This document shows positions 7,980 to 62,658 of a DNA stretch of 64,000 bases, in pieces; position 1 is the first letter of the stretch, and every line of letters starts with the position of its first letter. Position numbers and translations under genes: made by a program. The notes under the pieces are model-generated. The model was not told the origin of the DNA, searched no databases, and worked only from the letters and a program-made list of their open reading frames with translations. This DNA is from Acidobacteriota bacterium (GTDB taxonomy: Bacteria > Acidobacteriota > Blastocatellia > UBA7656): the NCBI GenBank assembly GCA_016201275.1, contig JACQDB010000038.1, positions 1-64,000 of the forward strand. Direction: 5' to 3'.

Positions 7980-8054
7980 TCAAATCACGCCCAATTGTTT
8001 GCCAACTTTATCGAAAGCGGCGAGGGCGCGGTCTAAATCCTTACGAGTACCTGA
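7980..8054 (-). pseudogene. Orphan 3' end of a second glycine C-acetyltransferase gene
   Basis: Reading leftwards this stretch encodes [18 protein letters not shown] then LGVI and a stop. The last 22 residues of the intact kbl gene (9459-10688) read [18 protein letters not shown] then LAVI, so 18 of 22 residues agree, with the stop codon in the same place. Similarity fades upstream of about 8054. There is no start or remainder of the gene. Most base differences are synonymous, so this is a diverged paralogue end, not a recent exact duplication. It flanks the AT-rich cassette on the side opposite to kbl. Confidence 0.85.
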
Positions 8055-8079: not shown

Positions 8080-8460
8080 TTATTGACTTTGAGCTAAAAG
8101 TACCCGAATCACCTTTTTGGTTTTATCATTAGAGAAAATTTGTTGTAAGGCTTTAGTGAATTCTTCTTCTGATTTTGCAATTATCGGATCGCCCTCCCAA
8201 CTTATTTTGAGTGGATAAATGTCTATCGGGTAATGAACCGAAAACAAATGATATTTATAGTGTTTTAATGCCGGTGCTATAAGGTAAAACTTGTAATTAA
8301 AATTGTTGTCTATACCGGCATCAGAGATTTCCCCTTCAACAAGGTTTTTGGTCTTTTGCCCAAGCAGTGCGGCTTGCTCTTTTAGTATGCCTACGGGTGT
8401 TGAAATATCATTTACTACACCAATATCATTAGGCCACAAATCTCGATTCAGGTTTTCCAT
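8080..8460 (-). CDS. Small hypothetical protein paired with EEP nuclease gene
   Basis: A 126-residue soluble protein, start supported by AAAGGAG 6 bases upstream and located 15 bases after the stop of the EEP-family gene. No signal peptide or membrane segment. The sequence is rich in Lys, Ile and Asn (for example GIDNNFNYKFYLIAPALKHYKYHLFSVHYPIDIYPL) and clearly more AT-rich than neighbouring chromosome genes. A conserved-looking core is a beta-strand region followed by a C-terminal helix with SEEEFTKALQQIF. I do not recognise a family. Tight coupling with a nuclease/phosphatase-fold gene suggests a partner such as an inhibitor, adaptor or substrate-recognition subunit, but this is inference. 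Confidence 0.7.
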   Translation of the reverse strand: MENLNRDLWPNDIGVVNDISTPVGILKEQAALLGQKTKNLVEGEISDAGIDNNFNYKFYLIAPALKHYKYHLFSVHYPIDIYPLKISWEGDPIIAKSEEEFTKALQQIFSNDKTKKVIRVLLAQSQ

Positions 8461-8475
8461 ATCACGCTCCTTTCA

Positions 8476-9424
8476 TCAAAAGTTCAAGGTAAACAAAATC
8501 GGCAAATGATCTGAACCTCCATCTTTATCTGGCAATCCTTTATCAGTCATTAAAGACTTGCCTGAGCACGCCGTTAAAATTTTCAAATCATCATTGCGAA
8601 AAAATGGTAACACATCAGGGCGTAGCATTACTTGATCAAAAAGATTCCAGAAATAGACATCATGTTCGGCTTTCTCGTAATAATAGGTTCCAGCAGGAGT
8701 TTCGTTGGCATCGCCCCAATGCCCCCACATCGGATTATAAAAAAATGGGTATGGTTTGTCTTGAACCATTCGCTCTCTTCTCAATGTAATATCCTTGGTC
8801 ATCACTGCGTGCAACCCGTTTGCCGCAATCACACCATACTCAAAAGGATTCATATTGAAGTCACCTACCAATACAGTTTTTCTATGCCCAAGCTTTTCTT
8901 CCACCTCACGAATTGCGTTAGCAAGATTGATACACTCAGAGATTTGGCTCTTCTCTGAAAAATGTAGTTTGCTCGGCATATGAACGGCAGTCAACAAAAA
9001 CTCCGCCCCGGAAGGCAAAACGACTTGTCGAATCGTGATTCTATGACTTTCATACAGAGGGCGGATAAACTCGCCAGAGAAACCAGTGTAAATGGCAATC
9101 TTTTCACAATTACTGAAAGGAAAGTGAAACTGCACTTCTTGGCGATTTAATACGGAGAGCATTTCACCTGCCGGTATTTCACTTTCTACCAGAATTAATA
9201 CAGCAACTTGGTGTTTCTCAACCAATAATGCGAATCAAGAGTTGAAAAATGTCCGCGCTGAAAGGAAAGGACTTATCAACCCGGCTTTTGGGTTTTTGCC
9301 CAGATGTCGCCTGTAAATCGTTGATTCTTTATCGCTGATTTCAACTCTTGATTCGCATCAATAGACGAATCATATCTGTCAGGGGTTTCTTGTTCATGTT
9401 CCAAAAGAGAAAGGTTGTCATCAC
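8476..9424 (-). pseudogene. Endonuclease/exonuclease/phosphatase (EEP) protein, split by insertion
   Basis: The EEP fold is shown by LILVES (metal-binding Glu), VLVGDFNMNP (Asp and Asn) and GGSDHLPI (catalytic Asp-His). The first motif, FLFWNMN (Asn ligand), lies upstream at about 9421-9364 after a GTG/ATG start and a GAGGAG ribosome site. Between the two parts sits a 131-bp inverted-repeat element with duplicated target CAATA. Removing it and one target copy restores a continuous frame (IRLL joined to VEKHQ), about 269 residues. The insert plus target is 136 bases, which shifts the frame. The remaining 249-residue frame from a TTG lacks the first metal ligand and has no ribosome site of its own, so activity is probably lost. 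AT-rich, probably transferred. Confidence 0.85.
9228..9358. mobile_element. 131-bp MITE-like insertion with 20-bp inverted ends
   Basis: Perfect 20-bp terminal inverted repeats, ATGCGAATCAAGAGTTGAAA at 9228-9247 and its complement at 9339-9358, enclose about 90 bases with no coding capacity. Direct repeats CAATA at 9223-9227 and 9359-9363 are the target duplication. The element interrupts the EEP-family gene, which proves that it inserted. No transposase is present in the window, so it would have moved in trans. No second copy was noticed here. Confidence 0.9.
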
Positions 9425-9458: not shown

Positions 9459-10688
9459 TCAAATCACAGCTAATCTCTTACCGACCTTATTGAAAGCGGC
9501 AAGGGCGCGGTCTAAATCCTCTCGCGTGTGTGCGCCAGAAATTTGTGTGCGTAATCGCGCTTCGCCTTTCGGCACCACCGGATACCACAAGCCTTTGATA
9601 TACACGCCCTCTTTCAAAAGCTCTTGACTCATGTCTTGCGCGACTGCCGCTTCGCCCAACATCACAGGCACTATCGGGTGATTGCCCTCGATAATAGTGA
9701 AGCCTAAATTGACGATTTCACGGCGAAAGTAAGCGGTGTTCTCTTGCAGTTGCGTAACTATCGAAGGATCATTTTCAATCAAATCAATTGCTGCAATTGA
9801 CCCAGCGACCACAGACGGCGGCATGGTGTTTGAAAAAGTGTAAGGGCGAGATTTCTGTCTGAGAAATTCGATCAACTCCTTGCGCCCTGCGATGAAGCCC
9901 CCCGAGGCACCGCCCAAAGCTTTGCCAAAAGTTCCGGTGATGACATCTATTTCGCCAAAGACATTTTGCTCTTCGGGAGTGCCGCGTCCGCTCTTGCCCA
10001 TCACCCCTGTCGAATGCGAATCGTCAACCACCAACAACGCCTGGTTTTCTCGCGCTATGGCGACCAACTCCGGCAAATGCGCCAGCTCGCCTTCCATAGA
10101 AAATACCCCGTCGGTGACGATGATTTTAATGCGGAAATTTTTATCGCGGTCGGCCAAAAGCATCTGCTTCAAATGCTCAAGGTCGTTGTGCCGATAAGGG
10201 CGCGAGATGGTAGGCTTGGCAATCGCTTTGCACAAACGTATACCGTCAATAATGCTGGCGTGATTAAGTTGGTCGCTGTAGATGGCGTCTTGATAATCCG
10301 TCTGCCCGAAATCATTTGCTAAGAGCGCCGAGAAAAACGCTTCGTTAGCAGCAAAACATGAGCTGTGCAGTATAGAAGTTTCGCAACCGACAAACTGCGC
10401 GATGCGACGTTCAAGCTCAAAATGAATCGGCTCAGTACCACACAAAAATCTCACCGAAGCCATGCCGTAGCCCCATTCATCAAGAGCGCGATGCGCTGCT
10501 TCTTTGACCTGCGGATGATTCGCCAAACCTAGATAATTATTTGCCGCCAGCATGACGACGTTTTGATGATTCACCGTGACGGTTCCGCCTTGCTCGCTTT
10601 CGAGCGGCACTTCGTATTTGAAAGTCTTTGCGGCTTTCAGGTTTTCAAGTTCACTGCCAAGCGTGCTGTAGAGTTCGTTGATATTCAT
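9459..10688 (-). CDS. kbl: Glycine C-acetyltransferase (2-amino-3-ketobutyrate CoA ligase)
   Basis: A 409-residue PLP enzyme of the alpha-oxoamine synthase family, close to the usual 395-400. It cleaves 2-amino-3-ketobutyrate with CoA to glycine and acetyl-CoA, the second step of threonine breakdown. Visible motifs: [10 protein letters not shown], the cofactor-stacking [12 protein letters not shown] region, [11 protein letters not shown] and the PLP lysine in [12 protein letters not shown] (Lys256). The start has AAGGAG upstream. A threonine-dehydrogenase-like gene lies 6 kb away on the same strand. Some members make aminoketones from other acyl-CoAs, so substrate range is inferred. A diverged copy of its last 22 codons occurs at 7980-8054. 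Confidence 0.93.
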
Positions 10689-20238: not shown

Positions 20239-20251
20239 TGCTTTGTCCTTT

Positions 20252-20345
20252 GTTACTGGTTATTTGTTACTGGTTATTTGTTACTGGTTATTAGCAGCTT
20301 ATTCGCTATGACCAATAACAAGGAACAAATAACCAGTAACAAATA
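20252..20345. repeat. Heptamer repeats with inverted halves (ACCAGTA family)
   Basis: Left half: three copies of TTGTTACTGGTTATT. Right half: AACAAATAACCAGTAACAAA, the complement. Between them is a short loop with GACCAATAACAAGG. The tract fills the gap between the DUF1080 stop and the quinone reductase start and can fold as one hairpin. The same heptamers occur at 26892-26962 and 27151-27210. Confidence 0.8.
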
Positions 20346-26891: not shown

Positions 26892-26962
26892 TTTCTGGTT
26901 ATTGGTTAATTGGCTATTGGTTATTGGTTACTGGTTATTGGTTATTGGTTATTGGTTATTGG
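26892..26962. repeat. Heptamer repeats (GGTTATT family), left tract
   Basis: About nine near-identical units of GGTTATT/GGTTACT run directly up to the pcrA start codon. The complementary tract lies at 27151-27210, so the two can pair across the inverted-repeat element between them. Confidence 0.85.
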
Positions 26963-26982
26963 GCTTTCGACTTCTCCAACCT

Positions 26983-27099
26983 TATAGCGGCTTGCAGATG
27001 TGTGCGATTTGTTGAGAGGCGGTCTGTGCCCGCCGCACGGCGGTCACAGACCGCCTCTCAACAAGGTGTCGTGGTCGCGGACAAATGAAATTCGCTATA
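26983..27099. mobile_element. MITE-like element, GAGAGGCGGTC family, copy 1
   Basis: Ends are TATAGCG at 26983-26989 and CGCTATA at 27093-27099. Inside are the shared segments GGCTTGCAGATGTG, GTTGAGAGGCGGTC, GACCGCCTCTCAACAAGGTG and ACAAATGAAATT. The central GC-rich hairpin is longer than in copy 2 (59851-59946). If the outer TA is the target duplication, the ends would be of the TA-inserting type; this is inference. Confidence 0.85.
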
Positions 27100-27150
27100 T
27101 AGTCAGTAACTTCCAGCATAAAAGAACAGGAAATAGCGTTTAGTATTTCT

Positions 27151-27210
27151 TCAACCAGTAACCAGTAACCAGTAACCAAGAACCAGTAACCAGTAACCAA
27201 TAACCAGTTC
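27151..27210. repeat. Heptamer repeats (AACCAGT family), right tract
   Basis: Seven to eight units of AACCAGT/AACCAAT run up to the stop codon of the isochorismatase gene at 27212. They are the reverse complement of the tract at 26892-26962. Confidence 0.85.
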
Positions 27211-28017: not shown

Positions 28018-28157
28018 TCTGTTGTAACTCTTTAGAAATGTCCTCTGTAGAGCAAGATAATTGAGGCAACTCTAGGTTTGCTCTACAGAGGACATTTCTA
28101 AAGAGTTAGAGGACATTTCTAAAGAGTTAGAGGACATTTCTAAAGAGTTACAACAGA
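28018..28157. mobile_element. 140-bp element with 29-bp inverted ends and 21-bp tandem repeats
   Basis: The left end 28018-28046 (starts TCTGTTGTAACTCTTTAGAA) is a perfect inverted repeat of the right end 28129-28157. The right side carries three consecutive 21-bp copies (AGAGGACATTTCTAAAGAGT plus T) at 28087, 28108 and 28129. The inner part also has GCTCTACAGAGGAC paired with its left complement. Repeated end motifs and TG...CA termini resemble the multiple transposase sites of IS21-like elements; the family assignment is inference. Confidence 0.8.
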
Positions 28158-44054: not shown

Positions 44055-44174
44055 ACTTTAGTCCTTAGTCCCTAGTCCTTAGTCCCTAGTCCGTGGCTTG
44101 GAGTCTTTAGTGCATCGGCTGGCGCGCAAGGCGTAAGTCAAAACTAAGGACTAGGGACTAAGGACTAAGGACTA
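44055..44174. repeat. TAGTCCY heptamer repeats, inverted halves, between DUF1385 and prfA
   Basis: Five units of TAGTCCT/TAGTCCC at 44060-44095 and the complement (ACTAAGGACTAGGGACTAAG) at 44143-44172 flank about 45 unrelated bases. The right tract ends at the stop codon of DUF1385 and the left tract lies just before the prfA start, where its complement supplies AAGGA. The layout parallels the AACCAGT tracts but with a different heptamer. Confidence 0.85.
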
Positions 44175-62369: not shown

Positions 62370-62658
62370 GTTTGGAGTACCGCCTGAAGGTTTTTTGAAA
62401 AATAATCCGACAATAGCCCGCGAAGCGGGTGCCAGCATAAAGCCCCGTTCGTCAGAGCGGGGTAGGCGGTGGTTGCAGGACTTCCGAGCCTGCGAAGCGG
62501 GCGATAGCCGATGGTCTATCGCCCGCTTCGCAGGCTCGGATATCTGGTTCGTTCGCTACCCAAGGTTCGCTATGCTTCACCTTGGGCTAAATGCTTACGC
62601 CCACCTTCGTGGGCTTGTCCGATTCATTCTTCAAAGATCATCAGGCGGTACTCCAAAC
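62370..62658. mobile_element. 289-bp hairpin-rich element with 18-bp inverted ends
   Basis: GTTTGGAGTACCGCCTGA at 62370-62387 is exactly complementary to 62641-62658. Inside is a perfect stem of about 25 bp (starting TCCGAGCCTGCGAAGCGGGC, roughly 62486-62543) and smaller hairpins (CCCGCGAAGCGGG, GCCCCGTTCGTCAGAGCGGGG, CCCACCTTCGTGGG). No coding sequence. It separates actE from the ActF-NarK gene within one operon. Confidence 0.85.

Follow-up and report, generated by a model that had tools for sequence, protein, structure and literature searches.

A gene for an EEP-type nuclease in the window, the 64,000-nucleotide stretch of Acidobacteriota DNA analysed here as a whole, is interrupted by a 131-bp non-autonomous element of the MITE type. 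We are confident in reading this locus as an IS982-type MITE that was moved in trans into the EEP gene, duplicating CAATA and leaving an EEP null. In the proposed mechanism, a MITE of a 15-copy family would have been mobilised by an IS982-family transposase that recognises the common 19-20-bp end, and would have inserted at codons 20-21 of the EEP gene, where a staggered cut of the target followed by repair would give the 5-bp duplication (CAATA). The predicted outcome is a null allele, as translation from the native start would halt after 26 codons, and translation from an internal start would have neither a ribosome-binding site nor the FWN strand. The insertion illustrates clearly how an IS982-type MITE can disrupt an accessory gene, which is an ordinary kind of event. 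The MITE-type insertion, the exact duplication, the broken EEP gene and the full insertion sequence, found in a relative, all stand from the preliminary description of this DNA; the recency that it attached to the event, and its suggestion that the cassette was silenced, are kept here as presumptions.

The element and the broken EEP gene

The insertion site and the two parts of the gene are arranged as follows.

9228 to 9358, no strand assigned: non-autonomous element of the MITE type, 131 bp long and bounded by perfect 20-bp terminal inverted repeats
9228 to 9247, plus strand: left terminal inverted repeat; its first 20 bases equal the IS left end and 19 equal the IS right end
9339 to 9358, minus strand: right terminal inverted repeat; with the adjoining bases, 25 are identical to the IS982-type left end of the same genome
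9223 to 9227, no strand assigned: target duplication, first copy, CAATA
9359 to 9363, no strand assigned: target duplication, second copy, CAATA
9359 to 9421, minus strand: first 21 codons of the EEP gene, including the FWN motif, with the native ATG at 9421
8476 to 9225, minus strand: remainder of the EEP gene, a 249-aa open reading frame that opens at TTG without a ribosome-binding site

The two 20-nt arms (9228-9247 and 9339-9358) show 100% complementarity at a spacing of 91 nt, and no coding capacity was seen within the 131 bp. Perfect 20-bp inverted repeats between direct repeats of CAATA had been reported in the preliminary description, and both were located in the sequence. The element is thus short, has inverted ends, lacks a transposase, is bordered by a target duplication and is present in multiple copies, which are the features by which a MITE is recognised.

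Removal of 136 bases, corresponding to the element and one CAATA, gives a single open EEP frame of 269 codons, in agreement with the earlier claim that excision joins the two halves in frame. The native start is the ATG at 9421, with AGGAG in front of it; the end coordinate given earlier had implied a start at the GTG at 9424. In the interrupted sequence, the frame opened by the native ATG meets a stop after 26 codons, inside the element.

The joined window protein was aligned with eight homologs, which are 43-55% identical (alignment A1). F4, W7 and N8 are invariant and lie in the severed part, whereas the invariant E34, D142, N144, D259 and H260 all lie in the part that remains. We take N8, E34, D142, N144, D259 and H260 to be the catalytic set of EEP enzymes, and, judged from the alignment, the joined protein would carry all of the catalytic Asn, Glu, Asp and His columns. 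The first Asn motif had been described as cut off by the insertion and restored by joining, and this agrees with the position of N8 of the FWN in the severed part. As read from the sequence, then, the insertion deprives the gene of its FWN motif, and a loss of EEP activity is predicted. Against the Pfam EEP model PF03372, with a gathering score of 24.5, one of two homologs scanned scored 34.7 and the other 21.7; the 249-aa piece of the window alone gave weak matches to PF03372 and PF14529, reaching 12.7 against the PF03372 gathering score. The profile of the EEP alignment retrieved no relative of solved structure, and a plasmid search returned three weak, partial EEP matches.

The TTG at 9225 does open a 249-aa frame, which could be taken as a real gene starting at VEKHQ with the element simply lying upstream of it. 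This is hardly credible, because no ribosome-binding site precedes that TTG and because an additional N-terminal strand with the invariant F, W and N is present in all eight aligned homologs and in both viral EEP relatives. The preliminary description had named an EEP family that normally begins at VEKHQ as grounds for abandoning its reading; the eight homologs in A1 instead start earlier, with the FWN. A different alternative accepts the broken gene but holds that it was already dead or useless, so that the insertion was neutral and silenced nothing. The patchy distribution of the cassette lends itself to this explanation, as EEP homologs occur in 8 of 98 genomes comprising our own and its relatives, and in 3 of 297 genomes drawn across the phylum, with our own included in both counts. 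We nevertheless regard it as unlikely, since the rest of the EEP frame is open, the columns invariant in the eight homologs are kept and the start signal (AGGAG before the native ATG) is good.

The window also contains other inverted repeats. One, at 28018-28157, has on one side a 21-bp unit, AGAGGACATTTCTAAAGAGTT, repeated about three times in tandem. Other perfect 20-bp inverted pairs less than 300 bp apart lie at 20249-20345, 26918-27206, 44058-44168 and 62483-62540, and part of these are simple runs of tandem units.

Copies of the element and its presumed mover

A search of the element's own genome, as proposed in the preliminary description, retrieved 15 related copies, a recurrence that makes the insertion more than a product of chance. 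One other copy is 100% identical to the window copy and others are 85-99% identical to it. Four copies in this genome are identical among themselves and about 76% identical to the window copy. Perfect 5-bp duplications border 9 of the 15 copies (shuffled mean 1.13, maximum 7 in 100,000 shuffles), and the final base of the duplication is A in eight of these nine; the duplications at the remaining six have one mismatch in two cases and two or three in four. The copy identical to that of the window (contig C60, 2912-3042) has no matching 5-bp duplication, an absence that could be accounted for by a misjoin or by copies having recombined. The copy on contig C3 may also interrupt a gene, as 602 stop-free codons run across the element, but its flanks taken separately gave no single convincing gene. 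A copy of 131 bp was also found in a relative of another genus (genome G002), 78% identical and with TACTG on both sides, showing that the family is either older than the split of the two genera or has moved between them.

One copy in the own genome is 180 bp long (C57, 32256-32435; about 1757-1936 of locus L036). Its extra length comes from a subterminal unit of about 22 bases repeated in tandem, and its two ends share the same base change. This copy is somewhat like the BrickBuilt MITE of Porphyromonas gingivalis, which in the available text of its report contains a tandemly repeated unit of about 23 bases and is always intergenic (PMC4596501); the likeness noted is one of description.

The conservation of length could also be read as a sign that the element is a structured repeat with a role of its own, such as an RNA hairpin or a regulator, kept for its usefulness and found in the EEP gene only incidentally. 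The exact 131 bp is kept between genera at 78% identity, and a folding energy of -46 kcal/mol (z -6.35) was computed for the element strand. However, most of this fold is the 20-bp terminal hairpin common to any such element, the site showed neither a promoter nor a terminator above chance, and transposition agrees with the 5-bp duplications and with the presence of near-identical copies at unrelated positions. A kept structural role is thus very improbable, and the element is treated here as a transposed MITE.

Mobilisation was likely due to an IS982-family element. In the own genome, the 19-bp end adjoins pieces of an IS982-type transposase at six contig ends: two are left ends next to the IS982-like N-terminus (C68 and C144) and four are right ends next to the C-terminus (C102, C61, C110 and C101). 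Transposase fragments from this genome give partial matches of 41.4 and 56.8 bits to NF033520, and one fragment contains a stop. No complete IS982 copy is present in the own assembly, where fragments were found at contig ends only and the middle was not found, as would be expected of a repeat longer than the reads. AAAAA stands beside the end in both C68 and C61, a pattern that may reflect a single copy split by the assembly. A full insertion sequence with the same ends, the search for which had been suggested at the outset, was found in G002. This element is 938 bp long, with 19-bp ends, TGCTA on both sides and a 292-aa transposase that scores 142 bits on NF033520 (cut-off 130). An IS982-type transposase occurs in three of seven genomes of the family, our own included.

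The MITE shares 25 bases at its right end with the IS left end and only 19-20 at its other end, and in the comparison with G002 the interior beyond the ends shows no resemblance to the IS. Because of this unlike interior, the descent of the MITE from the IS is something that we infer from the ends. The G002 element falls within the ranges given for the IS982 family in the available text of PMC7335449 (length 845-1282, ends 11-32, duplication 2-10), with its 938 bp, 19-bp ends and 5-bp duplication, and its transposase lies above the NCBIfam cut-off. According to the same text, IS982 ends usually begin with AC (57 of 69 members), a typical and not a defining trait, whereas the ends of the G002 element and of the MITE begin with AT, so the IS982 membership of the mover rests on its transposase. 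Table 1 of that source includes no member from Acidobacteria.

The element is one more IS982-derived MITE, a kind already described in Cardinium, where MITECca01 derives from IS982/ISCca4 (PMC9769881). As far as the available text of that report goes, both elements are short, lack a transposase, have IS982-family ends with a few subterminal bases, occur in many copies and sometimes lie inside genes. They differ in that MITECca01 is about 240 bp long, with 169 copies in a host of another phylum, whereas here the element is 131 bp long with 15 copies; moreover, the presumed mover is present in the own assembly as fragments only, unlike in the case of MITECca01. The word "IS982" did not occur in a word search of the available text of a 2024 review of prokaryotic MITEs. 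A literature search with the end sequence gave two matches, both unrelated, and no other Acidobacteriota case of an accessory gene broken by an IS982-type MITE stood among the literature matches listed.

The 19-bp end in other bacteria

The exact 19-mer was found in at least 103 stretches of the genome collection (L066-L168), against an estimated chance expectation of about two in the whole collection; as these stretches were selected by the exact 19-mer, they do not report on the variability of the end elsewhere. Among the matches listed, 80 titled rows name some 50 assemblies by hand count, mostly Bacteroidota, with seven Bacillota, one Acidobacteriota and one Chlorobiota. A relative of the transposase lies on the locus in 13 of the 103 matches listed, and five longer transposase matches among these, besides UBA7656, are 38-41% identical to the Acidobacteriota transposase. 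In 54 other listed matches a second end was detected by a search within 500 bp that allowed up to 4 mismatches. Perfect 5-bp duplications border 24 of these 54 two-ended matches (shuffled mean 1.51, maximum 7). Fourteen rows of length 77 among the 54 come largely from one Prolixibacteraceae assembly and probably reflect, in most cases, a wrong inner partner; without them, perfect duplications are present in 23 of 40 listed matches (shuffled mean 1.33). The interiors of the two-ended matches form at least 23 clusters by blastn, mainly from Bacteroidota and Bacillota, and none is similar to the interior of the window element. One viral contig carries the 19-mer, where it belongs to an element of about 961 bp flanked on either side by TAGAA.

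Within the class, the 19-mer occurs in 5 of 162 genomes, and the reversed 19-mer, used as a control, gave none among the matches listed. The same insertion in relatives had been put forward as evidence against a recent event; the frames of the homologs are uninterrupted, and among the listed 19-mer places of the class there is no EEP locus other than that of the window. The searches yielded no second genome of the species and no empty site. A 153-bp element from another family of the class (L169, genome G107, from 1501) shares these ends, encloses a different interior and is bordered by TGATA on each side.

A nearly fixed 19-bp end of the IS982 type could be a mobilisation signal common to several phyla, so that MITEs would be movable by any resident IS982 relative. 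This proposal is tentative and, on balance, we lean slightly against it. If it were true, MITEs would not have to be derived from the element that moves them. Conservation of the 19-bp end beyond transposase similarity, on many unrelated small elements, makes the mobilisation of MITEs by a foreign IS testable.

The EEP-partner pair and its surroundings

The broken gene is one half of a conserved, unnamed pair, consisting of the EEP protein and a partner of about 126 aa, which is patchy in the phylum. The window features that bear on the pair are the following.

8080 to 8460, minus strand: intact gene for the 126-aa partner, 15 bp downstream of the EEP gene
9459 to 10688, minus strand: putative kbl-like gene that immediately precedes the EEP gene, 37 bp from the EEP start
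7983 to 8048, minus strand: second copy of the last 22 kbl-like codons, beyond the cassette and matching 9462-9527 at 52 of 66 bases

The gene at 9459-10688 is named kbl-like from its sequence, and its orthologs are 77-88% identical in the six other family genomes searched. In all six, the stretch around the kbl-like gene is without the cassette. Together with the repeat of the kbl end beyond the cassette, this makes insertion at the end of the kbl-like gene the probable route by which the cassette reached this locus. The kbl-end duplication was also considered as a target duplication of the MITE and rejected, because the repeat lies outside the whole cassette. A repeat of the end of the upstream gene was likewise rejected as a general feature of the cassette, as none is present in seven of seven relative loci (L216 not among them).

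The profile of the partner alignment gave one chance-level match against solved structures. Modelled alone, the partner reached a mean pLDDT of 49.4, and modelled with two viral relatives it reached 78.7. With the latter model, Foldseek retrieved nothing from PDB or BFVD at E <= 0.001, and the best VIA Z was 6.7, too low to be relied on by that tool's own guidance, so no fold is claimed. Neither the EEP piece of the window, nor the partner, nor one homolog matched PADLOC-DB.

A relative of the partner lies behind the EEP homolog in all eight loci examined and on both viral contigs. The pair is found less than 60 bp behind an open reading frame of the same strand in six of the six relatives for which the upstream region is listed (L216 and L218 not among them). 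Searches of the phage collection for a viral EEP relative, and of plasmids for a viral partner, found none. On viral contig L237, a gap of 49 bp separates the pair from the repressor (phrog_4) that precedes it. The place directly behind a phage repressor often holds protective genes expressed in the lysogen, and it is a reasonable guess that the EEP-partner pair is a protective gene pair of lysogens. On the other viral contig (L236), the pair stands beside an anti-repressor, with no co-directional gene upstream.
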